Source of the DNA: Megalonaias nervosa
Lineage: Eukaryota; Mollusca; Bivalvia; Unionida; Unionidae
NCBI GenBank assembly: GCA_016617855.1
Contig: JAECUM010093710.1
Location: 1 to 64,000, forward strand
Direction of reading: 5' to 3'
DNA: 64,000 bases
This document shows positions 9,155-54,783 of the stretch, in pieces (position 1 is the stretch's first letter; each line of letters opens with the position of its first letter). The translations under genes and the position numbers were made by a program. The notes below the pieces were generated by a model. The model was given only the letters and a program-made list of their open reading frames with translations. It was not told the origin of the DNA and made no database searches.

Positions 9155-9228
9155 CTGTTCTGAATTTCATTAATTAACAGCAAGGCTTCATTGTCTCTCT
9201 TAACTTCATTCACATAGAGAGAAAGGTC
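9155..9228 (-). CDS. vav: vav exon: last DH helix, YVNEVKRDNE
   Basis: Seventy-four nt, phase 0 in and phase 2 out (leftover AG), acceptor 'ttcatttcag', donor 'gttagt'. It reads DLSLYVNEVKRDNEALL, then LINEIQN. Vav1 reads DLAQCVNEVKRDNETL here; CVNEVKRDNE is one of the most conserved Vav stretches. The leftover AG needs one base from the next exon. The T that opens the 19-nt exon at 478-496 gives Ser, matching the S of the Vav sequence SIENL. Confidence 0.95.
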
Positions 9229-9998: not shown

Positions 9999-10070
9999 CT
10001 GCATGGCATCAAGAGCTACTTCAAGAGATTTCCTATCGTCACTGCTTTTATCTGTGTTCTTAATCAACTC
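9999..10070 (-). CDS. vav: vav exon: DH domain, ELIKNT...ALDAMQ
   Basis: Seventy-two nt (24 codons), phase 0 to 0, acceptor 'ttgtgcacag', donor 'gtaagt'. It reads ELIKNTDKSSDDRKS, then LEVALDAMQ. Vav1 has ELVKHT...NLRLALDAMR at the same place, just after the QR-x-x-x-Y-x-LLL helix. It forms the start of the last long DH helix. Confidence 0.93.
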
Positions 10071-14017: not shown

Positions 14018-14113
14018 CCTTAACAAGAGATGATACTTGAGTACTCTCTGCATTGGAACATGTAACAAATCTCTCAGCCTGAATCTTCCTTCATTGGCTT
14101 TCCTCTCACATTC
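14018..14113 (-). CDS. vav: vav exon: DH domain conserved region 3
   Basis: Ninety-six nt (32 codons), phase 0 to 0, acceptor 'attttgttag', donor 'gtaaaag'. It reads [15 protein letters not shown], then [17 protein letters not shown]. The L-L-x-x-P-x-QR-x-x-x-Y-x-LLL signature is conserved region 3 of all Dbl-homology domains, the helix that carries most GTPase contacts. The preceding C-x-x-(K/R)AN-x-GRF is specific to Vav (Vav1 CSQRANNGRF). All signature residues are intact, so the exchange domain should be active. Confidence 0.95.
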
Positions 14114-14774: not shown

Positions 14775-14978
14775 CTCAATGGCTAATTTAATACTATCAC
14801 TCTTTTTGGAAATCTCCTCGATATGCTCTTGTGCCTGCGGTAAATTTGAGCAGTAATCCCCATAAATGATAAACTTTCGCTTGTGGCTGACAAACACCTC
14901 ACTGATCTGGATCCCAGTGCCTGTTGTGCAGGCTCGATGCAAGTCTTTGTAAAACTGACTGTGAACTTCATGCAAATT
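14775..14978 (-). CDS. vav: vav exon: central DH domain
   Basis: Two hundred and four nt (68 codons), phase 0 to 0, acceptor 'tttctgctacag', donor 'gtaaga'. It reads NLHEVHSQFYKDLHRAC, then ISEVFVSHKRKFIIYGDYCS, then LPQAQEHIEEISKKSDSIK. This is the Vav pattern L-x-x-VH-x-x-F ... VF-x-x-x-x-x-F-x-x-YG-x-YCS ... A-x-x-x-(L/I), covering the middle helices of the RhoGEF domain. It is the longest exon in the window and the strongest single match to Vav. Confidence 0.95.
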
Positions 14979-16059: not shown

Positions 16060-17250
16060 GTGATTACCACCATACATTATGACATCAATATAATGTGATC
16101 AATGCATTATGGTATCATCCATATGTGATCATTACATTATGGCATCATCCATATGATGTGATCATGGCATCAATATGATGTGATCAATTCAGTATGGCAT
16201 CATCCATATGATGTGATCAGTGCATTATGGTATCATCCATATGATGTAATCAGTACATTATGGTGTCATCCATATGATGTGTTCAATGCATTATGGCATC
16301 AATAAGATGTGATCAATGCATTATGGCATCATCCACATGATGTGATCAATACATTATGGCATCATCCATATGATGTGATCAATGCATTATGGCATCATCC
16401 ATATGATGTGATCAATACATTATGGCATCAATATAATGTGATTAATACATTATGGCATCATCCATATGATGTGATCAATAAATTATGGCATCATCCATAT
16501 GATGTGACCAATACATTATGGTATCATCCAAATGATGTGATTAATACATTATGACATCATCCATATGATGTGATCAATGTGTTATGGCATCATCCATATG
16601 ATGTGATCAATACTTTATGGTGTCATCCATATGATGTGATCAATGCATTATGGCATCAATATAATGTTATCCATACATTATGGCATCATCCATATGTGAT
16701 CAATACATTATGGCATCATCCATATGATGTGATCAATGCATTATGGCATCATCCATATGATGTGATCAATACATTATGGTGTCATCCATATGATGTGATC
16801 AATGCATTATGGCATCATCCATATGATGTGATCAATGCATTATGCCATAATGTGATCAATACATTATGGCATCATCCATATGATGTGATCAAATGCATTA
16901 TGGCATCAATATAATGTGATCAATACATTATGGCATCATCTATATGATGTGATCAATACAATATGGCATCAATATGATGTGATCAATACATTATGGTATC
17001 ATCCATATGATGTGATCAATGCATTATGGTATCATCCGTATGATGTGATCAATAAAATATGGCATCAATATGACTGTGATCAATACTTTATGGTATCATC
17101 CATTTGATGTGATCAATACATTATGGCATCATCTATATGATGTGATCAATGCATTATGGTATCATTCATATGATGTGATCAACACATTATGGTATCATCC
17201 ATATGATGTGATCAATACATTATGGTATCATCCACATGATGTGATCAAAA
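16060..17250. repeat. 33-bp minisatellite, about 36 units
   Basis: Units of 33 bp alternate tgatcaatacattatgg and catcatccatatgatg. The block CATCATCCATATGATG is nearly palindromic and TGATCA is a palindrome. Some units are shortened to 'catcaatatgatg'. Because 33 is divisible by three, the plus strand stays open and would encode repeats of YDVINTLWHHP. There is no start context, splice signal or family match, so I do not call a gene. Confidence 0.93.
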
Positions 17251-17267
17251 CAAACATCAAAAAAAGA

Positions 17268-22721: not shown

Positions 22722-22790
22722 CTCTATGTGTAAAAAGATTTTATCTCTATCATGTGTTGTTATAATTGTCTTCAAGGGCTTAATGAAATG
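22722..22790 (-). CDS. vav: vav exon: DH domain, HF(I/L)KPL segment
   Basis: Sixty-nine nt (23 codons), phase 0 to 0, acceptor 'ctttccacag', donor 'gtgagt'. It reads HFIKPLKTIITTHD, then RDKIFLHIE. It aligns without gaps to HFLKPLQ...IIFINIE of Vav1, the DH segment joining the first helix to the region that follows. The next canonical exon (14775-14978) starts NLHEVH, equal to Vav DLLRVH, so the protein continues smoothly. A further splice-flanked reading frame lies 300 bp downstream at 22318-22413 and ends on the same ATTGAG/ATAGAG-gtgagt pattern. Confidence 0.93.
22722..22790 (-). promoter_or_regulatory. vav: splice sites bracketing a DH exon
   Basis: Acceptor 'ctttccacag' ends at 22791 and donor 'gtgagt' begins at 22721 on the minus strand. 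Listed because the candidate exon at 22318-22413 uses the same donor sequence, which could make the two compete. Confidence 0.4.
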
Positions 22791-25204: not shown

Positions 25205-26215
25205 GAAAAATTGCCTCCAGAGAGTTCACAAGATCTAAGCTCAACATCAAATTCAATAAGACCTAATTCATGTATGTGGAGCTCATTAATTGCCTCCAGA
25301 GAGGTAAAGCTCTAAGCTTAACATATCAAATTCAGTAAGACCTAATTCATGTATGCGAAGCTCAGTATTTGCCTCCAGAGAGTTAACAAGCTCTAAGTTC
25401 AACATATCAAATTCAATAAGACTTAATTCATATACGTGGAGCTCATTAATTGCCTCCAGAGAGGTAGCAAACTCTAAACTCAACATATCAAATTCAATAA
25501 GACCTAATTCATGTATGCGAAGCTCAGTAATTGCCTCCAGAGAGTTAACAAGCTCTAAGTTCAACATATCAAATTCAATAAGACCTAATTTATATATGTG
25601 GAGCTCCTTAATTGCTTCCAGAGAGTTCACAAGATCTAAGCTCAACATCAAATTCAATAAGACCTAATTCATGTATGTGGAGCTCATTAATTGCCTCCAG
25701 GGAGGTAACAACCTCTAAGCACAATATACCAAATTCAGTAAGACCTAATTCATATATGTGGAGCTCATTAATTGCTTCCAGAGAGGTAACAAGCTCTAAG
25801 CTCAACATATCAAATTCAACAAGACCTAATTCATGTATGTGGAGCTCATTAATTGCCTCCAGAGAGGTAACAAGCTCTAAGCTCAACATGTCAAATTCAG
25901 TAAGACCCAATTCATGTATGTGGAGCTCATTAATTGCCTCCAGAGAGGTAACAACCTCTAAGCACAACATATCAAATTCAGTAAGACCTAATTCATGTAT
26001 GTGGAGCTCATTAATTGCCTCCAGAGAGGTAACAAGCTCTAAGCTCAACATACCAAATTCAATAAGACCTAATTCATGTATGTGGAGCTCATTAATTGCC
26101 TCCAGAGAGGTAAAGCTCTAAGCTCAACATATCAAATTCAGTAAGACCTAATTCATATATGCGAAGCTCAGTATTTGCCTCCAGAGAGTTAACAAGCTCT
26201 AAGCTTAACATACAT
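25205..26215. repeat. 81-bp minisatellite, about 12.5 units
   Basis: Each unit runs attgcctccagagaggtaac, aagctctaagctcaacatat, caaattcaataagacctaat, tcatgtatgtggagctcatt. A second unit type has 'gcgaagctcagta' in place of 'gtggagctcatt' and recurs near 25355, 25520 and 26160. As 81 is divisible by three, both strands stay open for up to 169 and 147 codons; neither looks like a protein family. Confidence 0.95.
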
Positions 26216-27076: not shown

Positions 27077-27178
27077 CATAACAAGCATGCTTAAGGCATC
27101 AACATAGTTTCTCTCTGTGTCTACCATTTCCTTGATACAATAATCTCTTTTTGTGATAGGCTGTGGCAGTTCTGAAGT
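27077..27178 (-). CDS. vav: vav exon: start of DH (RhoGEF) domain
   Basis: One hundred and two nt (34 codons), phase 0 to 0, acceptor 'ttattttatttcag', donor 'gtaatg'. It reads TSELPQPITKRDYCIKEMVD, then TERNYVDALSMLVM. The K-R-x-x-C-x-x-E-x-x-x-T-E-x-x-Y-x-x-x-L pattern is conserved region 1 of Dbl-homology domains, whose Glu contacts switch I of the Rho GTPase. Vav1 reads KRCCCLREIQQTEEKYTDTL here. This places the DH start correctly right after the acidic exons. Confidence 0.93.
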
Positions 27179-30100
27179 CTGAAATAAAATAATTAAAATT
27201 CATATCAAACAGATTTGCATTTGGTACCTGATGCTACACACAAAATGTATGCATGAAAATGGTTACACTAATGGACAAAAAGAATACCCTTTACTTGGAC
27301 ATCAATAATTTTATACCAAAATTTTATACCTTTCTTTTCCCTGTCAACATGGACTGTATGCATTCTACTCAATGGGCCAATGTAAAAACTGCTACCATGT
27401 TGTCCATTGGGATTTTCATTGCAGGGATGCATAAGCTCCAAACACCCAGCTGATTTCCAATCAAGAGCTATTGTCATAAACTGAATATTTTGTTTAGTTC
27501 TCCTTTCTCCTAAATGATCTTTCACTTAAGCAGCATGCAACTGTTCAAGGGGAACATGTATGCAGTTTTATACCAACTTCTGGCCAATCTTTTTAGGTGT
27601 TCCAAATTTGTATTTAAAAATTCTTGAACACGTGGGGGGGGGAATGGAATGTACAGTGTCTGCATTAACAAGGAAAAGAATGGTGTAACATTACCAAACC
27701 CACATCACAAGAACTCTCTTAGTCTATTTTTAGGGCTGTTCACATAATTACCATTTTCAATGTAGCAATTGTTACCATTTGCAATCCAATCCGAAAGGAA
27801 CTACAGTCAATGAGCCACCTAATTTTCTGATACATAATGCCAGCCCAACTGCAGTCAGTGTGTGCTGCCACATCATGCAGTGGTAGAGCTGAGCCTATGC
27901 TGTTAATAATTGTGTATACGTTACGCAAAAGTAATTGCTGTATTCCCATTTTTCCAACCGATTCTTTTAATAAAGTACAATGTCAGGTCCATTTGAATCA
28001 TCTGTTAGAAGATGCTCACTGAAATTCTTGTAATCTGAGTATCCTCTAAGGCTTCCCACACCATTTTTTATATTTGCATTTATGTTTGGGTGTAACATAA
28101 ATGTCCATATATCAAAAATGGGGTGGGAAGGGCCAGAGGAATTGTCATTAAACTTCTTGGCATAATTTTAAATAGCGCAACATTATCAATTAATCCATTT
28201 CCTAACTTTGCACATTGTTGAACTATGACAATAGTCACATGATGATATTCATTATGTAAAAGTCAAATGGCCAATCCACAGACACTTGTGTCACAAAAAC
28301 AAATAAAAATAAACATTTTGAGTAAGCAAAGTATCTGATTGGTTCATCAATACTGATGAAGACCCCTCCAACTCTATTAAACCAGAAAGCCCCTTCAACT
28401 GTCTTAAACTCGCGGGCAATTTAAAATACCAGTAATTGTTTAAAAAGAGTCAATATGTCCACTGATGTGTTTCTGGCAGATTTGTCTGCAGTAATTGCAA
28501 TGTTTAGTTAATAGGTGAGATCAGAACACTTGCCGCCAACATCAATATAGGCTTGGGGGCTGAACTATCAGACTATCAGAGTGGCACCAATTTCAATTAG
28601 AACCAACAAGTCACCACAAGAAGTCTTCCGGTGAAAACAGCTTGACAGTAGGGTTTTCTGTTCAAGAGGAGTAGCGATAACAAGATTTTCAAGATGGTTG
28701 ACATAGCAGTCAAAACTAAACATCAGATCGGCACAATTTTCATTTAGGACCAACCAGACATCAAAAGAGGTCTTTCTATGAAAACCCTATATTTAACTGT
28801 CCATACATTCAGATGGAGTAGCGATTAAGATTTTCAAGACGGGTACTGTGGTAGCCATACAAAGAGGTAGCTATTTTTATATATCTGAGTGGCACTGTTT
28901 ACATTTAGGACCAACTAGACCATGGAATGAACATGTATAAAGTTTCATGGTAATCTTTCAGGTAGTTTAGGGGAAGTAGTGATAACAAACTTATCCAAAA
29001 GGACAGATGGACGATAGAGAATGGATAACAGACCACTGAATGATCTCTTCTGGTCTATGACAGTACAGCTAAAAGCAATGAGAACAGACCCATGAAAATA
29101 CATAAACTGACAGTATACCTTTTTGTAAAGACCAAGAAATATTACTCAGTTCTAACAAGATTGAATTTCATGTTCTTTTCTTTCAACATTTAGGATACAT
29201 TTCACCACTGTACAATTTGAACTTTTTTGTATTCAAGTAAATTATTCTAATTACCTTTTTTTTAAGATCTGACAATAATGTTTCATACGACCTGTGTATG
29301 TGTGTGTGCGTGTGTGTATGTATGTATGTGTATATATATATCCCTCATGATAATGTCATAGTTGGGGTCCTTAACTGCAGATTGCATTTTGTATGGAGCT
29401 GCATTACAGTGAAAACATTATAATGTACAGAAGCATGGTACAGTGAACAGCGCTATATACTAAACCAAAGTATAATGGGTATGAACAAACTACATACAAG
29501 TATTTTGGAAAAAAAAATAAGGTAACTAAACTCACGTTTTCTTTCATTTCATATTGTCATTCACTGGTTTCTTCTGTTTGGTTATGGAGTTCACTGCAGT
29601 ACTGAGTTTATATACTATAGTGAAATGGTCAAATGAGAGACATATCTTGCAAATGTAAGGAGTCCTCAGGCTTTCAGTGCATCTGGTTCAGATTTTATTA
29701 CATGTATAATCATATTTCTACCATTCCAAGACGTTGCTAAATAGATAAATCCATCCTGAATTCAAACTTCAAGTAAATGGATGCAGGTCTTTGAAAAAAG
29801 TTATGCCCACCTTCAACTCTAAGCTTCATTGTATTTGTATTTTGAAAAATAGTTTTAAATATTAACACATGAAACGTGACATTAGAAATTATTCTGTCAA
29901 CATTCTTGTTTCAATATGAACAATCTATTTTATTTTTATTCTCTTCAAGACCAATTACAAGTCCATATGGATAAGATAACATAAATAAAAGATATGATGA
30001 ACTGTGCCTTCAGTCATGCAAAGCAATCACCTTTGTAATGGCACATGCTACTTATAGTCCTCAAATGATGTTTAGTGGTATGACTATAATATTTACTGTT

Positions 30101-30589
30101 TATGAACATCAACTTATCCATGTCAATGTCTTCCAAATTGAGTGTACTTTTTATACCTGGATTCTATTTCTATCTCATGGTCTTTTCTAATAAAACTTTT
30201 TATTATCAGGGCCTTATCTAGTAATAAGACCACCCTACCTTTTGAAAAATTGTTGGGATCTTACCTACGAGAAATAGTCTTTTACCAATTCTATCTCTCC
30301 CAACTAAACAATACATCATTTGTCATCCAGTTTAACATATTTAAATATTCAGAAAGCACGCTTAATTTTTGAGAATGAGAGATGGCAGTACAATACAGTT
30401 TCCCGATTGATGAATACATCAACACCTTTATAGCAGAACTCACATAAAAACTCCACCTGGTTTGAGAGATCACTTTTAAAGGGACCAATAAAGTGACCTC
30501 TAGTCGTAAGTTTTTCTACATATCTGTACTCCCTACCTACCCACCTACCCAATCCCCAACAATAGCAAACCCTCCCACCCACCCCTTAC
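27179..30589 (-). other. vav intron, 3.4 kb
   Basis: Holds an AAGATGGC-family fragment (28555-29060) and a short GT/AT run (29297-29341). The rest, 27179-28550 and 29345-30589, shows no recognised element. Confidence 0.6.
28555..29060 (+). repeat. AAGATGGC/GGCCAT repeat family, 3' part
   Basis: Three blocks plus the family tail (aaagtttcatggtaatcttt, gataacaaactt, gaccactgaatgatctcttc). The family head is missing. Confidence 0.6.
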
Positions 30590-30704
30590 CGTTGCAGATG
30601 TCTTGCGTCTTTTTCTTGTGGAACACAAATCTTCATAAATTTCATCATCATCCTCTTGATAAACAGAGTCATAAAGTTCCTCATTGTCGTCCAAGTCATT
30701 TTCA
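30590..30704 (-). CDS. vav: vav acidic-region exon, type B copy 2 (ELYDSV + DEIYEDL, Tyr160/Tyr174-like)
   Basis: One hundred and fifteen nt, strong 'tgtctgctag' acceptor, 'gtaagg' donor, in phase 2 and out phase 0. It reads ENDLDDNEELYDSV, then YQEDDDEIYEDLCST, then a basic tail RKRRKTSAT. Both vertebrate Vav1 motifs EDLYDCV (Tyr160) and DEIYEDL (Tyr174) are recognisable in order. In the known structure the Tyr174 helix plugs the GTPase-binding face of the DH domain, and phosphorylation releases it. This is the canonical version of the exon. The basic RKRRK tail immediately before the DH domain is not shared with copy 1. The next exon (27077-27178) follows in phase 0. Confidence 0.93.
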
Positions 30705-32814
30705 CTAGCAGACACAAGCAAACAAAAGGAAATGAGAACTAAAAAACAAGCTACATGTCCGGGGTAATGCTGGGACATACACTGGCCTGTATAGTACAGT
30801 GCTCCCTCAACATTTTCCCCACTTCCATACAAGACAAATGGAAGCTTGAGGTGACAATAAATTAAGGATCCAAATGACGTTTACAGTGAATTAGACTCAA
30901 TAGTGACAGGGTTGAAAAATATTGATGGGGCTGGTAAATCAAAGGAGCACTGCAAATGCTTTAAAGAGAAAATTTTTACATGTGTACTGGTGTCCGCAAA
31001 TTGACAAACCTTAAATTTAAATCAAATTACACTATCTTCTTCATTATCCAAAACCAAAAGCAAATGAAACATTAAAATGATTATGATCATTGGTAGTTAC
31101 CACAATTTAAATGATGCTGTTTAAGCTAAGCAGTGGCATCAATTATGAAGTGAAATAATTTTGTAATGCCCTGCACAGCATTTAAGGTGTTTTTTTCCTT
31201 ATGTCTTTCATTTGTATTTCAGAGATATTTATTGATACCAAATAAAATGTTTAAAATATTTTAGCCCCCAATCTGCATATTGTTGGAAGAAAACCAAAAA
31301 AGTTTTATTTGGTAGATTTATTTAAAATTATTGTACAAAAGGTGACACAAAATGTATGTATATACAGCATAGGTATATACAGCTAACTCTACACATTCTT
31401 CAAGGTAATGTAAGAGTTACATACCTTTAAAACAGGTCAGAGGTCACTGCACAAAAGTACACTACTCTTCACTCAAATGTACAAGAAAAATTATAATACA
31501 CCAAAATTGTTGTGCCATTTTACAGTTAAAGAAACTTACACAAAATATGTTTAAAATTCTGCTTATTTTAGTATGTAGTAACCGAAATCACTTCAAAAAT
31601 GTTTCATTTTTTTCATTTGTGACTTCTGATCTACTGCAAAGGGATGAAACTCCTACATCTCCTTAGAGGATATGAAGAGTGGTCTATACTGCCAACAACA
31701 TTATCTAAAATGACGCATGCTGTACTGAAATGCTGAAAACATTGAAATAAATACAACATGTACATTAAGAAACTTAACTGAAAATATGCAAAATAATCAT
31801 CAAGCTAGCAGTATGTAAAATACATGGCACCTTCTGTGTGTGTCATAACCATGGAATCCTTCATGCTGAAATCAATGAAGATTAAAGCAAAAGAAACATG
31901 CAAAATAAGATTTGACAATTTAGATGTACAGAAAAGCAACTTGGAGAGATTTATATAAAAAATTCTAAATGGGGTTGAAAATTGTCTCTTTCAACCATAA
32001 AATTAGCCATTTTGACAACAGTTTAACAAGATGATTATATACACCTGTATCTCTTTAAATCCATGGAAAGAGACCAAAACTGGGTTATCCAAATTATTCC
32101 TGCTGGAGAACTTTCGTTTAATCCATATTCTTGTCTGTACATCTAAACAGGGTTTATAAATACTAAGCATAATGTCACAGGTCACTGGGATGTAGTTGCT
32201 AGGTCAAACAATACTGACACAGATAACTGGAAATTAGTAATCACAAATACACTCCACTAAACTACAACAGAAACCTGGAACCTGCAGATCAACAAAATTA
32301 TATTTATTATAGATTATATATGTGTGTCACAAGTATCAACAATGGACTACATCATGGTTGCATATGTACAAGTATGTGTTATGCTGAACCTAAGAAATAT
32401 AAAAGGGATCCAGTAGTTGTCCCAATGGAAGTGGCATACAGGTTATCATCCATGGTTTGTAAAGCCCCCAAGAACTGAATTTCAAGGCATTTAGAAGGAC
32501 TTCCAAGAGTTTTCAATGAGTGTTTTTATTTTTTTTAAAGGAAAGCTTCTTACATATGTTACATTGTTCATCACTAATTGGTAAAAAAATAGAAGAAAAA
32601 ACATTACTAACTAGTGCATCATTTATTTATTTATTTTTGGAATGTGTAAGTAACAAAACTTTTGAATTGCATAGGTGATTAATTTATTACAGTTTTAGAT
32701 TTATGCATTCTCTCAGATAAATTACAGTATTTTTTTTCAAAATTAAAAGAATTTTTCAAGCAGATCTTCAAATTCAAGAATTTTATTCTGGTTACATGAA
32801 CCGTGGTTATCCAA

Positions 32815-34545
32815 AATGTGTCTCCATGTTGGTGGGATACAGGGTCTCCTCATGTCTTCTAATACAGAAGGGTTGCAGGGTATCCCAATGTGTTCTAATA
32901 ATAAAGGGATGCAGGGCATCTCCATGTGTTCTAATAAAGGGATGCATGGTATCCCCATGTGTTCTAATAAAGAATGGATGCAGGGAATCTGCATGTGTTC
33001 TAAAAAAGAAAGGATGCAGGGTATCCCCATGTGTTCTAATGAAGGGATGCATGGTATCTCCATGTGTTCTAGACAAGAAGGGATGCAGGGTATCTCCATG
33101 TTTTTTAATAAAGAAAGGATGCAGAGTATCCACAAGTGTTCTAATAAAGAATGAATGCAGGGTATCTCCATGTTTTCTAATAAAGAATGAATGCAGGGTA
33201 TCTCCATGTTTTCTAATAAAGAAGTGATGCAGGATATCCCCATGTGTTCTAATAAAGAAAGGATGCAGGGTATCCCTATTTGCTCTGATAAAGAAGGGAT
33301 GCAGTGTATTCCCTATGTGTTCTAATAAAGGTAGGATGCAGGGTATCTCCATGTGTTCTAGTAAAGAAGGAAAGCAGGGTATCCCCATGTATTTTAATAA
33401 AGAGGGGATGTAGAGAATTCTCATGTGTTCTAATAAAGAAAGGATGCAGGGCTTCCCCATGTGTTCTAATAAAGGGATGCATGGTATCCCCATGTGTTCT
33501 AGTCAAGAACAGGGTATCTCCAGGTTTTCTAATAAAGGATGCAGGGTATCCCCATGTGTTCTAATAAAGAAAGGATGCCAGGTATCCCAATGTATTCGAA
33601 CAACGAAGGGATACAGGGTTTAACCATGTCTTCTAATACAGAAGGGCTGCAGTGTATCCCCATCTGTTCTAATAAAGAAGGGATGCAGGGAATCCCCATG
33701 TGTTCCGATAAAGAAGTGATGCAGGGTATCCCCATATGTTTTACCAAAAAAGGGATGCAGAGTATCCCCATGTGTTCTAATAAAGAAGAGATACAGGGAA
33801 TCCAAACGTGTTCTAATAAAGAAAGGATGCAGGGCTTCCCCATGTGTTCTGATAAAGGGATGCAGGGTATCTCCAGTTTTCTAATAAACAAAGAGGAGAT
33901 GTAGAGAATCCTACTTTCCCATGTGTTCTAATAAAGAGGGGATGCATGGTATCCCTCTGTGTTTTAATAAAGAGGGGATGTAGGGAATCCTAATTTGTTC
34001 TAACAAGGACGATATTCAGGGTATCCCCTTTTTTCTAATAGACAAGGGATGCAGGGTATCTCCATGTGTTCTAATAAAGAAGGTATGCAGGGTATCCCCA
34101 TGAGTTCTAATAAAGAAGGGATGCCAGAGGTGTGTGTGTGTTATTTGGATTTTTAACGCAGCTTTAACAATTTTTCAGTCATATCGCTACGATGTCTGCA
34201 GTGTGGCAGTTTATAGTGATGTCTAGCACTAGGGCATCATGTTGCAGACATGTAGCATCATGTCCCACCCAGTCACATTATCCTGACACCAGGCTGACCA
34301 GTCCCAACACTAACCTCTTAATGCTGAGCGCCAAGCGAGGTAGCTGTTAGCACCATTTTTTTTAAATCTTTGGTATGACTCGGCCAGGGATCGAACCCAC
34401 GACCTCCCGCATCTGAGGCAGACGCTCTAACCACTAGGTCACCGGAGCGGTCTAAGGGATGCCAGGTATCCCCATGTGTTCTAATATAGAGGGGATGCAG
34501 GGTATCCCCATCTGTTCTAATAAAGAAGGGATGTAGGGTATCCAA
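32815..34545. repeat. 36-bp minisatellite, about 39 units
   Basis: Units of 36 bp (some 33) read gggatgcagggtatccccat then gtgttctaataaagaa. The GGGTATCCC inside each unit is self-complementary. Long frames on both strands (repeats of MQGIPMCSNKE or LLEHMGIPCIPS) are by-products of the unit length. A SINE at 34128-34453 interrupts it. Confidence 0.94.
34128..34453 (-). mobile_element. SINE family 1, full length with target duplication
   Basis: On the minus strand it starts at a tRNA-like head (ctagtggttagagcgtctgc, A box; gtgggttcgatccctgg, B box) and has a body ending tcgtagcgatatgactgaaa, aattgttaaagc, then a short tail ending cacacaca. aagggatgccag flanks it on both sides (34116-34127 and 34454-34465), a perfect 12-bp duplication. 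The tail resembles SINE 3' ends that are common in mollusc genomes (from memory). The head is a retroposon promoter, not a working tRNA gene. Confidence 0.88.
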
Positions 34546-35996
34546 TAAGATTCATATTACAATGCTGATATTACACTTGTTTTTTGCTAGGGACAATTCA
34601 TGTTTAAAGATTATATATTACGAACTGAATATGGTGGTAGCATAAGCAAACTTTAATAAATGATCCATGACAGAGGGTGACAATTTTAAATATTGACATA
34701 TTAGCCTGATGTGGACACACTGAAAGTAGACTCAAAACATTATCTGTCGAATGATTCTTCTACTGTAAATAGTGATTTACTTTAACAGATGCCTGATATA
34801 ATCATCATAACATAACAATTACAAGAGATGGAGGGTTGTTTCCACATTTTATGTCTGTTTTCAAACTATACCGATGACTGACTCCCAATACCTAACAGGA
34901 CTCTTTAAAATTGCATTTCAGCAGATTTAGAAGAGTAACATGATAGTACTAAAATCAAAATCTTATCCTTCTCAATCATTCAATATAAAAACAAAAATTA
35001 AAATGAGTCCTTTTAAAGACCCGAAATCAGTTATAGTTATTGTTCAAAATGGACTATATCAAGCCTATACAATGCAACTGGACCTTTGTCAACAGCCATG
35101 GACCTCTGTCAACAGCTATCTTCTCAATACTTTGATTGCATAATGAACTGCTTGTTTGCAGTAAATCATTTGTTTGCTGTTTGGAAAAATGGTGCTAGTT
35201 ACATTAACCAGTCAACACTGATGTCCAGGCTAGCTACCATCCCCTGCATACTAAATGCTCCACAGACCCTTGTGTTGAGCCTACTTAAAGCACAATAATG
35301 AATCTCGATCCTATCCTTGGTATTTCACTTGCAAAACCTAAAACACAAACCTCTGGTGTTGACACATACCCTACTGCTGTCATTACCAGAAAAGTGATAC
35401 CAATGTTTACCCATGCTAATACTGGTGAGACAAAAAGACCATGAAAGTGGTCTAAGGCCTATGGAACCTGTACCACATTGTTGACACACGTGACACAAAT
35501 TTTCATCCATGTCTGTCAGTCATCACATTCACCGTCTCTTGGCAAAGAATATTTTGATGTTCTGAGAAATTATTTATCCACTGAGAATAATTATCATCAT
35601 GGCGATCTTACTTTTATTTCCGTCTAAAATCCTTGAATTCTTTTGTCCAATGTACTATACTGTTAGGTGTCCACAAGAGCAAACCATAATGTACAATAAA
35701 ATTCATGAAATCTTCAAAACTATGTGAAACTGCCTTTTAACTGAATGAAATCCTAAATCAATCCAGCAACCTGAATATAAACTTCAACCAGTCAAATACC
35801 TGCAGGTTAAACTTGAAGTAGCCAAATATTTGGTTCGGAGGGCTTTGTACCCGACTAAAATGGGTTAAAAAATAATGGTCTAATTATTGTATCCTGGCCA
35901 ATCATAAACAAGTTGGAAAATTCCTTTCATAGTTGGTAAAGTGAATTTGCTTGCCGCTTTATAACTGCATAAAATAAATCTCCCACTTCCCAGTAC

Positions 35997-36099
35997 CTGT
36001 GACCCTGCTAATCGTTTCAACGAGCAAAGGTCATCATAAATTTTCTCTTCATGGTTTGTGTGGACTTGAACTTCATTATCTTCAGGAACATCAGTCAAT
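35997..36099 (-). CDS. vav: vav acidic-region exon, type B copy 1 (EEKIYDDL)
   Basis: One hundred and three nt, acceptor 'tttgtacag', donor 'gtactg' (weaker than the gtaag donors of its neighbours). In phase 2, out phase 0. It reads LTDVPEDNEVQVHTNH, then EEKIYDDLCSLKRLAGSQ. EEKIYDDLCS is clearly related to DDEIYEDLCS in the exon at 30590-30704 and to the DEIYEDL site of vertebrate Vav1 (Tyr174), the main autoinhibitory tyrosine. It lacks the second upstream tyrosine motif (ELYDSV) of the other copy and is less acidic. It joins in frame to the DH exon at 27077-27178. Splicing it to the 30590-30704 exon would read TGA at once, so the two should be alternatives. Confidence 0.82.
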
Positions 36100-36253
36100 C
36101 TGTACAAAACACAGATCAAAGTCATTAGAAATGTTAATAATAGGTAAATGTTACAAAGCTCCTTGAAATGGAACTGCTGAAATAAAACAATTTCTTGGTT
36201 AAAGTCCTATATTCAACTCTTTTAATGATTTTAAACACAGATTTCAAAAACTG

Positions 36254-36256
<3 letters not shown>

Positions 36257-36306
<50 letters not shown>
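36257..36306. repeat. (TA)n microsatellite
   Basis: About 25 uninterrupted TA units, 160 bp from a vav type-B exon. Confidence 0.95.
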
Positions 36307-36311
<5 letters not shown>

Positions 36312-36406
36312 CCTGTCATAACAGTCACCTTTACTTAGCAGTCACCTGTTCACAATGGCCATTCTAGTTTGCACCCCACCTGCTACCCCACCCCCACCCC
36401 TGCAAA

Positions 36407-36407
<1 letters not shown>

Positions 36408-36439
<32 letters not shown>

Positions 36440-36600
36440 TGTATGTATGTGTATAAGCCCGTTTGTGTATAAGCCGACCCCCCCCCAACTTGACTAGGTA
36501 AAAATAGGAAAAATTGCATGACCCGCAGATAAGCCGACCCCTTCTTCTTCAAGGCTTTATTTTTTCCTAAATTCTTCAGCTTATACGCGAGTATATACGG
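36408..36600. mobile_element. MITE-like copy with its left end replaced by (TATG)n
   Basis: Right end gcttatacgcgagtatatac-gg (to 36600) with TA after it. The interior (aagccgacccc, aacttgactaggtaaaaata, ggaaaaattgcatgacc) is the same as in the next copy. The left end is lost and its place is taken by a TATG run (36408-36450). Confidence 0.7.
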
Positions 36601-36616
36601 TACATAACAGTGCCTA

Positions 36617-36785
36617 CCGTATATACTCGTGTATAAGCTGACCAACCAACTTGACTAGGTAAAAATAGGAAAAATTGCATGACCTGCAGATAAGCCAACC
36701 CCCCTTCTTCAAGGCTTTATTTTTTTTCCTAAATTCTTTGTATTTTTTTTCCTAAATTCTTTGGCTTATACGCGAGTATATACAG
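36617..36785. mobile_element. short MITE, TA-flanked
   Basis: 169 bp. Ends CCGTATATACTCGTGTATAAGC and the complementary gcttatacgcgagtatatac-ag are inverted repeats of about 22 bp (the middle agrees apart from two bases), flanked by TA at 36615-36616 and 36786-36787. It lies 16 bp from the previous copy in the same orientation. Confidence 0.75.
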
Positions 36786-36795
36786 TATATATATA

Positions 36796-36880
<85 letters not shown>

Positions 36881-36885
36881 CTGTC

Positions 36886-36922
<37 letters not shown>

Positions 36923-36945
36923 CTCTCTCTCTCTCTCTATATACA
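36786..36945. repeat. compound (TA)n(GT)n(CT)n microsatellite
   Basis: Runs directly out of the MITE's terminal 'tatatacagtatatat'. It contains TA, TG, TA, TG and TC blocks in that order. Confidence 0.95.
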
Positions 36946-37894
36946 CACACAAATACATGTATGTCCTGTTATATAAGAGCCACCCACCTTCAGAGGTCAG
37001 CGGCCAGGTGTTTTCTAAACACACAATGTTTTCACCCTGCCTTAAGTGGCTACTGATGCACATCTACAGCAGTGACAGCTCAGTCTTCTGCTTTATGAGA
37101 AAGGCATTGTATGGGTCAAGGAATATCATATGAATCAATTTGCCAATATTTCTTGTCTCACTTTACTCACTACATCCCAATTACATTGATAGTTTAACTC
37201 AAACGTGTCACTGTTAAATTTGAAAACAAGGCAGTTTTTATAATTAGGGTACGGGATCAAAGAAATTTGTTTGCTGGATGGTGAGAAAAAGTTGTCTCAT
37301 CGCAGCAGAAATGGGAATCACCCTTTGTGTCAGTGTGACAGGTAAAGTTAGAGCTTGTAAATTAAAGTTATCTCTGAACAATAAAGTTGATCTTTGAGAA
37401 GAGATACAAGTTACATCCCCTTTCATTAGGTCAGAGGTCATTCAATATTTAAAATTAAAGTCAGGTAAAGTTTTGGTTCATGAGTCAGAAAGAATAGCCA
37501 TATATGGCTTTTTTTTGATTTCCTATTCATTGCAGGCTTCTCACATAAGCCGTCTCATGATCTCAGTCAGCTCAAGAACTGGTTAATCCAGATATTGTTG
37601 TTAAAACTTGAAGTAAGATTGGTGTAGATTTTAAGTCAGTGATGATTTCATTTGTTGGGTGGATTAAAATGAGCAAGATATGGTAATTTTGTGTGGAACA
37701 TAAACTTATGACAGAACAAACTATATGCATAATTTATGATTTTGTTGTACAGTGCAATTAAACAATCTTCATAAAATAATAATAATAATAAAAATGATAA
37801 TGATATTCAGCCCATAGTATATGTGTATAAGGTGAATTTGAGTACAGAGCAACACCAACTTTTGCCTTTTCCCGCCAGTGGCCACTAATGACAG

Positions 37895-38098
<204 letters not shown>

Positions 38099-38639
38099 CT
38101 GTGTGATTTTTGCATCAAGTGAAGCAACAACAAAGTTCAGCCACATTAATCTGACTTCTGTTTCCCATGCATAATCAGCACCCAAGTATGATCAATGCAG
38201 ACTGAAATTTGTTTTTGGATAATGTACCAGCAGATCTAAGTCATAAAAAGAACAAGCAATCTGGACCTAAGCCTACTGGTACATACTTTGCAACAAAAAA
38301 AATTTTCTTTAAAAATAATGACTTGAAAAGAGGTATGTATTTCAAGAGACCTATTTTTAACCCTGCAATTTTCACTAATCCTAAAACAGAGTGGTGACAG
38401 GTGATTATGTCAAAATTTGTATCACCTAAAACAGGTATTGATCTTTTGAAATGGATACCACTTTTGAAGAAATTATTTCGATTCCAACATGAATACGTAA
38501 AATTCTTTTCAAAATCGACTGCACTCTGTTGACCAAGCACATAATCGACTTTAAAATGTTCATCATACAGAAACTTAACTACCACTTAGACATGATATTT
38601 ATCATGAAAGGATATCATTTATTCAAATTAGTCCTTTCA

Positions 38640-39255
38640 ATAGACTGTTGTTCCACTGGGCAAAAAGAATTTCCAGGAAGTCAAGATAAGATCATTTTTC
38701 CCTGTTAACTTCTGAATGCTGAAACCATCTGATATTCTTGAGCGATAACAAAATTTTCAAATTTAGCAGTTGTGGTGGACATAATGATGTCTCTCAGATT
38801 GGCACCATTTTTAGTTTAGAACAAGTAGACATCATTAGATGTCTTTTGGTGAAAGGACAATTCTGATATGAACAGCCATTGACACGAGTAGCAATAAGAT
38901 TTCGAAGATGGTCACTTTGGCAGCCATACTGGAGGTCAGACTGGCATCATCTTCATTTAGGACTAGCTAAACAACAATCTCAGTCCTTTAGTGAAAACCC
39001 CATTTTGATATGACCATCCATTTAAAAATAGTAAGAACCAGACTTTCAAGATGGTCACCGCCAATGGCCATATTAGATATCCAGGCTGCAACATTTTCAT
39101 TTCAGGCAAACTAGACCATGGGATGAGCGCATGTGTGTAAAGTTTCAAGGCAATCCTCCAATTACTTGATGAAGAGTAGCAATAACAAACTTGCACTAAC
39201 AGACTGACAACAGGCCATCCCATAAGCTTTTCTGGCCTATGAACAGTAGAGCTAA
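38640..39255 (+). repeat. AAGATGGC/GGCCAT repeat family, head-to-tail copy
   Basis: Has both the head (ttgttccactgggcaaaaag, aatttccaggaa) and the tail (acaggccatcccataagctt, ttctggcctatga), with about three internal blocks. It gives the best view of the family's limits, about 0.6 kb. Confidence 0.72.
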
Positions 39256-39629
39256 AACTGAATAAAATTAGAAGACTTCATGCCATAATGATCCCTGCCA
39301 AGGTTTTGGTTGAAACTGATTCAGTGCTTTTTGAGAAGACAATCAAAAAAGCAATTGTTGACACATGACTCATGCATAGTGCACGATGCTCTCAATCTGA
39401 AACAGTAAAGCAACTAATAACATCCTCATGTACAAGACATTTATCATTGATATCCTCTAACTGCCAAGCAAAGAAATTTACATGAAATATGTGAACGTGT
39501 TGTTTTTGTATGGTTCCAATTTCTGTGAATTTCATGGTTTGTTATGAACCATAAATGTTAAGACCTGATGAACAATGATCCTTGCACTGAAATAATGTGA
39601 CCCCCTGGCAAATCAATCAATGTTACGTA

Positions 39630-39966
39630 CAGCACTCCCTCATTATATTGCAGACATCAGGAACTACTTTACCACCGATCACATTATGTACTAAGCTACA
39701 GTACACAAACCACTGCAACAAATATAAAGTCAAAAAATTTGAGAATATCGTAATATACAGGATCGTGATATAGCGAACACTATAAAATTTTTTTTAAATA
39801 ATAGTGTTTCGAAAAGGAAATAAAGATACAAGACCAAGTTTCACTGGGTTCTGTTTCAACCCATAATGGTATACACTAGTATGGTTTTAGTCATGGGGTA
39901 CACAGTAACACTTCATTATATCCTGAATTGCATTGTAACAAAGCACATTAAAACAAGGGAGAGCTG
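39630..39966. mobile_element. MITE, Tigger-like, 337 bp
   Basis: Inverted ends CAGCACTCCCTC (39630 on) and gagggagagctg-type complement (aacaagggagagctg to 39966), flanked by TA (39628-39629 and 39967-39968). Internal sequence has no coding capacity. Confidence 0.7.
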
Positions 39967-42447
39967 TACATGAATGCAAATGCCATTTTTCACAAAACCA
40001 TGAAAACTGATACTCTCAAAAATAAATAAGTTCACAGAAACACAAATATCCAATATTATTTTGACATACCATATAAAATTCTTTAAAAGTCATGTAAAAT
40101 TGCATTAGCCTGGCAATTTTTCTGTACTTCTCTGATTTATTCCAGACTGATAGATAAGTGATTTTTCCATACCAATATTAACATGATTTAAATTAAGTTT
40201 AACATGAGCAGAAGCATAACCTGTGATTATTTAGATCAAAGATTTGCTTCCATAAAAAATTCAGCTAAGTTTTCAACTCAAAACAAACATGCCAGGAGTG
40301 CTGTTAGTAACTGTAAAACACAAAATGAACAAACAACACTAACGACCAATTCAAATGATTTGCTCAGTTATATGCTGGTATCATATCTTCATTCATATAC
40401 ACATAGTAAAAATGAACTGGATGTACAGGCATGTGGAAATCCAATGTCCAGCTTGTCATAATGAACTGCCAGACAATCAATGTTTACATTTCCACTGTCC
40501 ATAGATAGCTCTTTCTGCATGAGACTGAGTTTTATAATAGTATCTCTAGTCTGAATATACCTCCCCTTTTGTTTGTACCCCATTACCAATTAAAAAAACG
40601 AAAAGCATAAATGAGATTTTAAAAAATGCACAGAACTTAAGTTCATTCATTGATTTAAAATTTCAAGCCTTATTATGACCAGGAGGGTCCTAACACCATT
40701 ATTGTCTGCACATTTCATACCAATTGGAAGTTTTCAGTGTAAAAGGATAACCTGCTCGCCCATCATTTCATGTTCCTGGACAAGTCCATTTTCAATGAAG
40801 GGGTGGATGCATGACTACACATGTATGTACATAGAAGGTAAATACTACTTCGTCTGCTTCCAATATTTACAATGTCGAATCAAGCAAAAGAAAGGAATTA
40901 TAACAACGAATTTACCTCTCATGTGGAGTTAACAAGCAGTGTAATTTCTATGTACATATGTGCAAAGGAATATAGTTCTCAACTCACAGCTTTATGGCCA
41001 TTTACAGAATTATTCCCCAGTTACCGAATAGGATAAGCTCTGTCACTGTTGTCTGAGGAAAATAGACTAGCCCATAGTGTACACAAAATGGCGCCATGTT
41101 AGTATAGAAACTCCATTAGGTATGAAACAAGCAGACGATGACAGTGTTAGGACCACTCTGGTCAGTCAGGTTAGAAATTATAAATCAATGAATGAAATGA
41201 GTCAGTTTTGTGCATTTTTTATCACGTTAACATTTTTCATTATTGAAATCGGTAAGGGTGTACAAATGATGCAAAGACAATAGTATTGTCTGACAGCCAT
41301 TTACTTATCCAATTCTACAGTAAGTGTTTTAGATTTTAGATTTCATCCTACATCTTGACTGCTAACTGTTTGACTGAATTAGTTTACTTATAACTGATTT
41401 GGACCAATGTACTACTTCAGACTGATATATACTACTTCAGACTGATATATTCTACTTCAGACTGAGATCTGACCTACAAATTTCATAAATAATGCACATT
41501 TACATAAAACTTAATCAAAACATACTGTAAGTAAAAGAATAAAAGATGGAAAAAAGCTTTAATTATGGACAACTATGTGAGAATAATTACAAATCACAAA
41601 AATAGACATATACACATGTACCTTGATCATTTGGACATTTAGCCATCTTATTTACATATGGACAAATGGCAATTTTGGAGATTTCCACACACTTGTAAAT
41701 ATATTCAGCTGATGATTAAGCAGTCATTTCCATATAATAATTACATTAAAAACTAGAAGTGTAAGAATTCACACTCAATCCATTTTCTTCTCTTTCAAAT
41801 ATGCAATATATCCAATAACTGCTGATAAAATAATGCAACACAAAGCCCAATTTCAAAGTTTTTATAATGGATTTCAGAGTTACAGATAAGTGGTATATTT
41901 ATATATTTTATATAGACAATTTGACTCCAACTGCATACAGAAATTATTAAATGCATAAAAATTATATAAAACAATTTCAGTCAAAAGTTTTCAGCATATT
42001 GCTTCTGCCATAAGTGCTGTCAGTGTTTGATTAATATATCCATAATCTAGGCAAATTCCACATGTTCTGTACATGTTTGAAATGACAGAACTCAAACACT
42101 GTATGTGTGAAAACTCACTCAGATAGAGCCATAGGATCAAATGCACTCTGAACTAGTCTATGTCACTAAGCCATTTGATGCACTCATGAAGACATGATTA
42201 ATTACTTGATGAGATTAAAATTCTATCCCAAGGCAGATGTTGTGAATTTTGCAGTGTTTATAAAATACCGTTTACTTCTTATCTAGAGCTATGTAATTCA
42301 AATAAAGAGGTAAGCTATTAAGACAGGGGCATATACAAGTCTGTCAATCAATATCAAAATATAAGCCAAAACAAACTTTAGTTTTTGATTTAATAATCAC
42401 AAATACACCACTAAATTTTTCTTATGTAAGAATTATTAGTCTTTCAT

Positions 42448-42500
42448 TAGTAAAATAATAATAATAATAATAACAATAATAATAATAATAACAACAACAA
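42448..42500. repeat. (AAT)n microsatellite with AAC units
   Basis: About seventeen trinucleotides, AAT with some AAC. Confidence 0.9.
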
Positions 42501-42959
42501 ATATACTATTATTATTGCTGGAATTTCAGCTAACATGCACTTCTGACATTATACAACCAGCTAAATTTCAATACAATTTCCACTCGCTACATATATTACG
42601 TGCACTCTTGACATTAACCAACAATATATTACCTCCAGTATTATTATACAAGCTTGACATTCTGGCAAAGCTGGGCCAAAGTATCTGATTATATTTAAAA
42701 TGCCACCAACTACACAAGCAGGTAACAGATGGTATTAAGCCCTCGAACCCTTACATTTAACAATGGATGTTTTATTACATTCTAAAGAAGTAAGAATAGA
42801 ATCATTTCTCAATTTCCAGACTATGTATGGTTAGGTCAAACATGAATATTTCTAGCTGAATTTTCGGGAGAAATCATAATATAACTAGTTTGTTTAAAAA
42901 AAATCAGGGTATGAATACAGGGCACAATGATCCTGAACTTTGACCTTTTGCATACTTAC

Positions 42960-43043
42960 AGTGCCAGATCCTGTAGGTTACCATAGATATCTTCCTCACT
43001 GTTGTTATTATGACTACTGGACTTGTTATCAGGTGGGAAACCA
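42960..43043 (-). CDS. vav: vav acidic-region exon, type A copy 2 (EEDIYGNL, Tyr142-like)
   Basis: Eighty-four nt with a pyrimidine-rich 'gcttgtag' acceptor and a 'gtaagt' donor, in phase 2 and out phase 2. It reads GFPPDNKSSSHNNNSEEDIY, then GNLQDLA. The EEDIYGNL motif corresponds to the DEDIYSGL site of vertebrate Vav1 (Tyr142), one of three tyrosines whose phosphorylation releases the DH domain. The Ser/Asn-rich stretch before it is a low-complexity linker. The last two bases (CT) form a Leu codon with the first base of either downstream type-B exon, A at 36099 or T at 30704. It is the more canonical of the two type-A copies. Confidence 0.87.
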
Positions 43044-46034
43044 CTACAAGCAAGAGATAAACTAAAAACATACCCATTCAACTAAACCACTAAGTGTTAC
43101 TATAGTACTTGCAACCATGGTAGCAAGCAATGAACTATACCAAAGTAACCAAGAAGTGTGCCATTATGGTTGGCAAGGTATTTTCTGCCTGGAAGGTCTT
43201 AAAATGGCAATGAAGCCCTCACTGGTCAGTAATTTGATGCTTAAATCAAAAGAAACATTAGCAAAATGTTTCCATTCATTCCACTGATATTTAGAACAAA
43301 AAAGAGCCAATAAATAAATAGTATGGAATACATTATTTTCCACAGAATGACCCACTGCCATCAATTTATGCCACAGTTTAGAAACTCATGTATAAGTACT
43401 GTATATGTTTATGAATTAATATTTACAATAAAGTTTTGCATAAAATATATCTGAGGTCAGTACACTGGACATTGCTGTGAAATCTAGTTTAACAGAATTG
43501 CAAATATATCTCCTTCCTCCCTGGTTAAAAGGTCATGGAAAAATATGACTTTTCAATGTGTTATGAACAGCTACATTATTGATTCTTTTACAGTGTTGGA
43601 AATACTTCAAATAAAACAATTTTCCAATCTATTCCCTTTAGGATTTTATACCAATGATAACTGACCAATGAAGGCCAAGAAAAGTAGTAGGTGCTGACAG
43701 AAGAGTGATAAAATTCATTCAGGACAAAGAAAGAGACGGTGTTGGTTCTTGAAACAATACATGTCTCAAGTCTGTGAAATCCACTCTGCAAAAACAAAAT
43801 TAAAAGAAACACAGCACATATCACCCAAGTGAAAAATAATTAGATCTTCAGAAATTACCTATAAAGTAAACTGCATTATAGACATAGAAGATATCATTGT
43901 TACAAATGGCAGGCTAATGATTCCGAGGTCATGGAACAAGCAGCTAGCTTGAATGAAATAGTTACTAGTTTATATCACACCTAAACTGTTCTGCTCCATT
44001 TGTTTCTATATTACTTTTGATACAAAAATCTCAAAATAATCCCTAAAAATGTGTTAATGATGGTTTCCTACTGTCGCACTTCATCTGTTCTGGTGTGATG
44101 TCAGGCCTTTGTATCAAACGAATCAGGCATGTAACTGACCAATCATGTGCCTGTGTCCCTTTTCACTTCCACAGTTATCAACATCAAAGATGGATACTGA
44201 CACACAAGAAATTCCACACTACTGATTCGCTATTTTAAACTTTTCTCCTGTAGTGGATTTAAAAATCAGTATCATGCCAAATTGCAGCAACTGTAACAAA
44301 GTTTTCAGGTTTATATTTCTCACAACTGTGCTATCAAACATTAAAAAAATCTAAATACATTGTACGGTACACTTTAACAACAAAATATGCGCACAGATCA
44401 CCACAGTCAAGAATTTAAGAATATTGCACTTCTGCACTAAAATAATCGCACATTTGGTGTGTTTTCTAGGTTTTAAAATTAATTTATTACTGGAGAGAAA
44501 AAAGTATTTCCCTTAAACTGGCTGACTTAAATTTTGACCAGTCAAGTGTCTTAGATCTAGACAAACTTTAAAACATATGTTTAATGAAATCAGGCCAGAA
44601 CTGAGTTTTATCGACAGAACACAAGTCTAACCTTGGACTTCAGTCTCAAGTCCAGTAATCTGATACACTGAAATTAAGTCTGGACTTAATAATAAGACCT
44701 GTATTGGTGAAATCGGTGACTAGTCTTTCCTGGAATGGAAGTAGAGTCTATGTACTGCAACCTAGGTGACAAACTAAACAGTGATTTCAATGGCCTAATT
44801 TGATTTGGTGATCAGTTATTTAAAACTTGCATTATGATAGTTATAATGGAACAAAGGAAGTAATTTTACCAAGTCTTAATTCTAATAATTCTGATTCAAC
44901 TTAAATTCAACCCTGCCCAAAGTGACAGTTGTGCGATTAAAAAATTTTTAATTCCTATTTACCTTTCCACTTAAATTAAGGGTGTCAATACATGTGCACA
45001 ACATGTCATGGACATGACCTTATTTTAATCAGTGACATCTAAACTTATGTAATTCTTTGTATTAAATATATTCTAAAACAAAAACTATATGCAGCCAACC
45101 ATACTGTATTCTTCCAACAGACAGTCCCAAACCATGTACAGTGTGCATTAAAACCTTCAATGCATGGGGTGAGGGGGGCAAAGAATTTAGTTTTACACAA
45201 AAAAGAAATGGTTTTTTGAGAAAAAAAATTGCGATAATTTGTGGACAGAGTAGCTTATTCCATAGCCTAAAGAATAATTTGGTGTGAGTGCCCTTAAAAG
45301 TTTACAGATGTTTGGAGTAATCTTTTTTCCAAGTCCATCTCCCATGATTAAAAAAGGCTTTTCTAAAGCAAAGAAAAATCAAAACAACACTTGATAATGT
45401 AATCGAATATGGTGGGGTGGAAGATTCTGGCTGTCACTTTTATGGTTTGGTTCCTGTCTTGTGTAGTAGAGATAAATATGATTTGAACACAATGAGAAGT
45501 TACAATTCTGGGTTAATCTAATCAATAATTTTTTTCTAAAACAAGCAGCTATTCATGCTAACAGATTTTACAAACCCATTAAAGTTTGAAGTTAAATATA
45601 GCAAGTACCAAGAAGGGCAAAGTGAACAAGATTATACAACCAATGCATTTGTCCCTTTCCTTAAAAATGTCTCAAGCTGTTTGTCACAGACAGCTTCCTC
45701 AGAAATTACAACAACTGTTTATCAACAAAAAATTATTTTCTTGATCAACTTATAAGAACAGTCAAGATTTATATCCTTACATGAAGTAGGAATCCTTAAC
45801 AATAATAAAGAAAATATACAAGTCTTTCAGGAATGGCCATGAAGGTTAATCAAACTGAAAAATCCAGAATTGCTCACTTCTCATCTATTAGTACTAACGA
45901 AATTAGTTATTAAAACTAAAGCTAGCTCAAATGCTCAAGATGCACACAAAAATGGCACAAAGCTCCAGGGCCCAGGCTCTAGCCAAAATAAGCCTCTGGC
46001 CGTTTGGGGGTATTTTAATGCTGGGTACACTTAC
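43044..46034 (-). other. vav intron between the two type-A exons, 3.0 kb
   Basis: No transposon, array or coding signal recognised. It is the cleanest long intron in the window, which is notable between two duplicated exons. Confidence 0.55.
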
Positions 46035-46106
46035 TGAGCGAGCTCCTCGAGCGCATTATAGTAATCATGCTCGGGCATGTGATGGTGATTATTGGATGGA
46101 AATCCA
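46035..46106 (-). CDS. vav: vav acidic-region exon, type A copy 1 (DYYNAL tyrosine motif)
   Basis: Seventy-two nt between a 'tctag' acceptor and a 'gtaagt' donor, in phase 2 and out phase 2. After the T that completes the previous codon it reads GFPSNNHHH, then MPEHDYYNALEELA. The GFP start, the tyrosine followed by NAL/NL, and the final EELA/QDLA match the exon at 42960-43043, so the two look like diverged duplicates. In vertebrate Vav1 the equivalent segment holds the first regulatory tyrosine (DEDIYSGL context). This copy has an unusual double tyrosine and a histidine run in place of an acidic start. Skipping it, using it alone or including both copies all keep the frame. The call rests on splice signals and similarity; transcript evidence is lacking. 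Confidence 0.75.
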
Positions 46107-46197
46107 CTAGAATTACAGAATAAATCAACAAAGGATATGTTAAACATTATTCCCATAAAATCCCACTGGACAACAAAATATCCAACCTAAATACAAA

Positions 46198-53805: not shown

Positions 53806-53861
53806 TTGTATTTTTTCTGTGCCAATTCCGTCTTTGAGAGCTTAGACAAAGTGGTCAAAAC
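53806..53861 (-). CDS. vav: vav exon: end of CH domain / linker to acidic region
   Basis: Fifty-six nt, flanked by an upstream 'ttttatag' acceptor and a downstream 'gtaagt' donor. The reading is VLTTLSKLSKTELAQKKY followed by two leftover bases (AA). It matches the last part of the Vav calponin-homology domain, where family members read V-x-x-TLS-x-LS-x-x-x-x-AQ just before the acidic region. The CH domain helps hold Vav autoinhibited. The exon starts in phase 0 and ends in phase 2. That fits both candidate next exons (46035-46106 and 42960-43043), which each begin with a T that completes an Asn codon. The preceding CH exons were not found between 53.9 and 64 kb and are probably beyond the window. 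Confidence 0.85.

Positions 53862-54511: not shown

Positions 54512-54557
<46 letters not shown>
54512..54557. repeat. (TA)n microsatellite inside LINE fragment B
   Basis: About 22 TA units. Confidence 0.95.
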
Positions 54558-54562
<5 letters not shown>

Positions 54563-54783
54563 TAAGTGCTTCAAAGTACTGGGCAAAACTGGCTGAATGG
54601 CACAAATCAATTTCAGAATTTTTTTTTTTAAACCATGGGAGAAAAAAATTGCTAGGGTCAGCAATAAGAAACAGGGATGGCTGGCTGACTGGAAACACAC
54701 ACATTTTTTTTTTTGCCTTATCAGAAAGACTTTTGTTTTGTCTGTATTGAGGATCATACCACTGATACTACACCATATCTGAA

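Follow-up and report, generated by a model that had tools for sequence, protein, structure and literature searches.

The stretch of DNA analysed here (the window) comprises 64,000 nucleotides (nt) from the bivalve Megalonaias nervosa (GenBank assembly GCA_016617855.1, contig JAECUM010093710.1, positions 1 to 64,000 of the forward strand), and its minus strand carries the middle part of a Vav gene. The part identified starts with the last exon of the CH domain and extends through six exons of the DH domain (DH1 to DH6) down to position 9155, with four small exons (A1, A2, B1 and B2) between the last CH exon and DH1. We focused on B1 and B2, both of which encode a version of the acidic segment around Tyr174 of Vav. 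We estimate a probability of about 0.64 that they are old tandem copies of the exon encoding the last portion of the acidic region and that messages use them in a mutually exclusive way.

Assignment of the gene to Vav is based on its DH (RhoGEF) domain, which is closest to that of Vav, and on an acidic region with three tyrosines, both of which were found. Splicing the end of the CH domain to A2, B2 and DH1 to DH6 gave a peptide of 290 amino acids with a Pfam RhoGEF match (E = 6.4e-43). The best PDB match of this A2-B2 isoform was human Vav1, residues 111 to 388 (6nf1, 3ky9; E about 3.6e-63), and the top 6 among the 60 PDB matches listed were Vav; the A1-B1 isoform likewise matched Vav1 best (E = 2.4e-58). 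A2 and B2 together align with Vav1 over the Tyr142, Tyr160 and Tyr174 motifs, between the CH and DH domains. The last exon was the only part of the CH domain found within the window, the three minus-strand frames of 54101-64000 giving no Pfam match. Downstream of the DH domain, a PH domain, zinc finger and SH3-SH2-SH3 gave no Pfam match in the three minus-strand frames of positions 1-9000, and the gene appears to continue past that edge of the window.

B1 reads LTDVPEDNEVQVHTNHEEKIYDDLCSLKRLAGSQ and B2 reads ENDLDDNEELYDSVYQEDDDEIYEDLCSTRKRRKTSAT; each is preceded by AG and followed by GT. Translation and a splice check bore out the coordinates, sequences and phases (2 in, 0 out) that had been proposed for both exons in a first-pass annotation of the same DNA, made from the letters alone. 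The Ile-Tyr-acidic-Asp-Leu core of the Tyr174 motif is kept in both copies, which otherwise differ in the way that annotation described: B1 is less acidic (net charge -5 versus -9 for B2), and the Tyr160-like ELYDSV motif and the basic RKRRK stretch are confined to B2, leaving B1 without a Tyr160-like motif.

The reading frame constrains how the two exons can be used. We translated 16 exon combinations (no A exon, A1, A2 or both, each with B1, B2, both or neither) and found that 8/8 with exactly one B exon were open to DH6, compared to 0/8 with both or neither, a rule that applies to the canonical splice sites and has weaker in-frame routes around it. Each B exon can thus be spliced in frame both to the A exons upstream and to the DH exons downstream, as the first-pass annotation had it, and the canonical B1-B2 junction makes TGA the first codon of B2, again as claimed. 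The further claim that only one B exon can be productive per message held for the sites as drawn (16/16 combinations) but not without exception, as alternative sites or a linking exon could join both. A1 and A2, entered and left in phase 2, are frame-neutral, and neither, either or both can be used in frame. The eight in-frame isoforms, all of which were translated, therefore contain zero, one or two A exons plus exactly one B exon; they hold one to six tyrosines in all and, by reading, would present one to four tyrosine motifs per isoform. B1 and B2 are accordingly neighbouring homologous exons with equal phases, and with canonical sites the frame is lost whether both are included or both are skipped, which is the pattern of frame-enforced exclusion.

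Several lines of evidence suggest that B1, the divergent copy, is a real exon. Based on splice scores from approximate tables, with percentiles taken among all AGs or GTs on the minus strand, its acceptor ranks in the top 2.2% and its donor in the top 4.9%, values spanned by the remaining ten Vav exons (acceptors in the top 0.0 to 25.6%, donors in the top 0.1 to 7.7%). We also scanned the 15.8-kb interval between A2 and DH1 for open-frame candidate exons of 60-160 nt running from phase 2 to phase 0, with splice cut-offs placed slightly under the scores of the weakest Vav exon. This gave 15 candidates, some of them overlapping; in ungapped comparison with the B2 peptide, B2 itself scored best, followed by B1 at 48 and the next candidate at 19, and none of 7866 dinucleotide shuffles reached B1's score (maximum 35). 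With gaps allowed, B1 and B2 scored 55, a value equalled by 0/20000 residue shuffles of B1 (maximum 54), while A1 and A2 scored 52, also equalled by 0/20000. A pair such as B1 and B2 is very unlikely to have arisen by chance, and judging from these comparisons A1, A2, B1 and B2 resemble members of a single family of acidic-tyrosine modules.

The copies also look old and constrained. Across a 14-codon core (HEEKIYDDLCSLKR in B1, DDDEIYEDLCSTRK in B2), the proportions of differing sites were 0.73 for synonymous (pS) and 0.31 for nonsynonymous positions (pN), and a 13-codon core of A1 and A2 gave 0.57 and 0.40, respectively, although these cores were picked by similarity and the contrast between pS and pN is merely indicative. 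Nucleotide identity between B1 and B2 is 62% over the core, and the 1.1-kb stretches around the two exons have only short chance words in common apart from it. In a simulation of neutrally evolving copies of B2, both splice dinucleotides, the open frame and B1's level of similarity were all retained in 107/20000 copies at 38% divergence, in 1/20000 at 50% and in 0/20000 at both 60% and 70%.

Exons of the Vav gene in the window, in order of transcription
Feature	Position	Strand	Phase and basis
Last CH-domain exon, VLTTLSKLSKTELAQKKY	53806..53861	-	Phase 0 in, 2 out; PDB alignment with human Vav1 starting at residue 111
A1, Tyr142-like exon, GFPSNNHHHMPEHDYYNALEELA	46035..46106	-	Phase 2 in, 2 out; splice sites, likeness to A2
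A2, Tyr142-like exon, GFPPDNKSSSHNNNSEEDIYGNLQDLA	42960..43043	-	Phase 2 in, 2 out; EDIY shared with Vav1, nearer to the canonical form than A1
B1, divergent Tyr174-like acidic exon, EEKIYDDLCS	35997..36099	-	103 nt; phase 2 in, 0 out; without Tyr160-like motif
B2, canonical Tyr160- and Tyr174-like acidic exon, ELYDSV, DDEIYEDLCS, RKRRK	30590..30704	-	115 nt; phase 2 in, 0 out
DH1, first DH-domain exon	27077..27178	-	Phase 0 in, 0 out; frame needs exactly one B exon
DH2 exon	22722..22790	-	Splice sites, PDB alignment
DH3 exon	14775..14978	-	Splice sites, PDB alignment
DH4 exon	14018..14113	-	Splice sites, PDB alignment
DH5 exon	9999..10070	-	Splice sites, PDB alignment
DH6 exon	9155..9228	-	Phase 0 in, 2 out

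Mechanisms other than the frame were considered for keeping the two exons apart. Exclusion by too short an intron or by incompatibility of U2 and U12 sites was set aside, since the intron between B1 and B2 is 5292 nt long and both exons have GT-AG sites. Inverted repeats that would loop out B1 or B2 were absent from the best 25 of 332 pairs (at least 20 nt, 27179-46110); these longest 25 consist of simple repeats and lie in the intron between A2 and B1. Part of the B1-B2 intron is occupied by a 36-bp minisatellite of about 36 copies (32834-34124 and 34454-34543), adjoined by a stretch that by eye resembles a short interspersed nuclear element (about 34470-34190); ARAGORN found no tRNA gene.

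Other repeats and mobile elements lie elsewhere in the window. A transposase of the DDE_1 / HTH_Tnp_Tc5 / CENP-B-like type is encoded by two abutting minus-strand open reading frames (ORFs) at 20324-19044, between DH2 and DH3. The interval 4235-1715 combines a reverse transcriptase (RVT_1) with a GIY-YIG match just below the curated cut-off (E = 0.00023), and looks like a Penelope-like element. Two tandem repeats were also identified: one of 81 bp and 12.5 copies (25209-26212), much of which is open on both strands and which has no tie to Vav, and one of 33 bp and about 37 copies (16072-17252), with DVINTLWHHPY-like units on the plus strand.

Besides the way in which the codon cores were picked, a number of observations weigh against exclusive use of B1 and B2, or against the descent of B1 from a B exon. 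The B1 donor (CAG|GTACTG) scores 5.6, weaker than that of B2 at 10.5. Compared with the acidic segment of human Vav1, B1 scores only 26, matched by 134/7866 shuffles, and the case for B1 therefore rests on its likeness to B2. Even there, the gapped score of B1 against A2 is 47 (reached by 3/20000 residue shuffles), near the 55 obtained against B2, so that deriving it from a B exon depends in part on its phase and its IYxDLCS core; these two features group B1 with B2, whereas its front portion is reminiscent of A2. In a phmmer search with the A1-B1 isoform, neither of the full-length Vav1 chains listed had its Tyr174 aligned to the B1 tyrosine (two chains); among the matches listed, the shorter chain 2vrw alone did. 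We also counted seven splice-regulator patterns in the 300-base flanks of 11 exons and judged them by eye against the window average; no cluster was seen near B1 or B2, and two copies of TGCATG lie upstream of the last CH exon, versus 0.15 expected.

A final point of this kind is that B1 and B2 can be joined in frame through alternative sites or a linking exon. Six open alternative acceptors were listed for B2, the best at 30769 (score 0.5) and another at 30781 (-1.2), compared to 3.0 for the canonical site, and in-frame alternative donors of B1 at 36004 and 36022 score 2.0 and -6.4, compared to 5.6. The first-pass annotation had named an extra exon between the two as an outcome that would speak against it, and we found two candidates of the right phase: one of 38 nt (34480-34443; acceptor 3.3, donor 7.7, with B1's own sites at 3.9 and 5.6), which lies partly inside the minisatellite segment 34454-34543, and one of 35 nt (31865-31831; acceptor 1.7, donor 4.7). 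Likeness to Vav was looked for by eye in the 11-12 amino acids that they encode, and none was seen.

These routes bear on one rival explanation, in which a single message holds both B exons, so that the acidic region is extended and contains two Tyr174-like motifs. The in-frame acceptors, donors and linking candidates that it needs do exist, but the alternative sites score under the canonical ones, the linking candidates are not visibly Vav-like and the better of them is partly minisatellite, and we regard such a message as very improbable. If canonical sites are used instead, B1 could act as a poison exon, spliced in together with B2 so that the immediate TGA leads to decay and lowers Vav output in some cells, its likeness to the Tyr174 segment being a relic. 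The TGA at the junction is exactly what such an exon would provide, and the weaker donor of B1 is compatible with regulated inclusion. A poison exon has no need of its amino acids, however, yet the IYxDLC core is retained with synonymous sites near saturation, and B1 by itself leaves the frame open to DH6; we consider this explanation unlikely.

The same retention argues against B1 being a dead copy, once an exon and now unspliced. Although B1 is the less canonical of the two, its frame, phase and both splice sites are intact despite near-saturated synonymous sites, a state that simulated neutral copies of B2 seldom kept at the lowest divergence and all but lost at higher ones, which makes a dead copy quite unlikely. 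There is also a slim chance that B1 is the start of an alternative first exon, used from an internal promoter to produce a short Vav lacking the CH domain. Its frame is open upstream to 36206 with an in-frame ATG (MTLICVLYRLTDV...; ORF 36206-35883), and loss of the N-terminal region is reported to turn Vav1 oncogenic (PMC4385868). The good acceptor of B1 would be superfluous in a first exon, however, and an open upstream frame with an ATG is not peculiar to B1, being found at B2 as well. Finally, the shuffles that equal B1 against human Vav1 would allow a chance likeness, but those made for the comparison with B2 never did so. An assembly artefact placing two haplotypes end to end was set aside on the basis of the low identity of the cores and the lack of extended likeness between the flanks, and chance and artefact together are extremely improbable.

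If B1 and B2 are mutually exclusive exons, their exclusion would most likely operate through frameshift and decay of the wrong messages, perhaps with the help of splice regulators: messages with both B exons or neither would be removed by nonsense-mediated decay, as for exons Ab and 3 of U2AF1. Control of Vav by phosphotyrosine motifs is a textbook example of autoinhibition. Unphosphorylated Vav is described as closed by its CH-acidic region and last SH3 domain, and as opened by phosphorylation of tyrosines including Tyr142, Tyr160 and Tyr174 (PMC6562523, PMC6767298). The B2 form would correspond to the canonical double-tyrosine switch, strongly acidic and with Tyr160-like and Tyr174-like motifs and a basic tail, and the B1 form to a less acidic switch with a single tyrosine. 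Both segments are probably able to block the DH site. Given how Vav is opened, the B1 form should need a different number of phosphorylations; it would lack one of them and its opening threshold would differ, in one direction or the other. Inclusion or skipping of A1 and A2 would add none, one or two Tyr142-like motifs with the frame intact. More tentatively, the acidic region might be a splice-built threshold dial, whereby eight isoforms let one Vav gene adjust in each cell the number of phosphorylations required for opening, an extension that we find possible but doubtful.

According to a 2019 review, just one Vav gene is present in every invertebrate and urochordate species sequenced up to that point, with the exception of the choanoflagellate Monosiga (PMC6562523), and splicing would therefore be the route to Vav variety in these animals. 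If the pair is used, an animal with a single Vav would represent a natural experiment in switch strength, with one exchange factor carrying two autoinhibitory segments, and the difference between the B1 and B2 switches could be directly tested by RNA and exchange assays. The available text of that review contains no word starting with 'splic', and no description of duplicated acidic Vav exons appeared in the open-licence literature, judged by title and the start of the abstract among the matches listed. Neither viral nor prokaryote contigs, each scanned once, yielded a relative.

Frameshift upon joint inclusion defines an accepted class of mutually exclusive exons, many of which are reported in a human survey (PMC5740500), and B1 and B2 are probably a new case of this established class of frame-enforced, duplicated exons; the name Vav is absent from the main text, as available, of that survey and of PMC9741552, cited below for FYN. 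Compared to Vav1, the acidic region described here occupies the same position between CH and DH, and A2 and B2 carry the same three tyrosine motifs, but solved Vav1 (3ky9, 6nf1) has one motif of each kind whereas the A and B exons here each come in two copies. Human U2AF1 exons Ab and 3 are similar in being tandem duplicates of non-triplet length (67 nt in U2AF1), and messages with both or neither carry stops and are lowered by nonsense-mediated decay (PMC5224494). They differ in that their isoforms have been shown by RNA and encode part of a splicing factor, whereas the isoforms of the Vav pair are predicted from DNA and concern a tyrosine switch. Human FYN exons 7a and 7b are likewise mutually exclusive duplicates, located over the linker between SH2 and kinase domains and differing in tissue expression (PMC9741552, PMC5339870). 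FYN is a tyrosine kinase and these exons extend into its kinase domain (PMC9741552), in contrast to the acidic, tyrosine-containing segment that would be swapped in a Rho exchange factor here, but as a case of exon duplication within a signalling protein's regulatory linker, FYN 7a/7b appears to be the closest parallel in spirit to B1 and B2.

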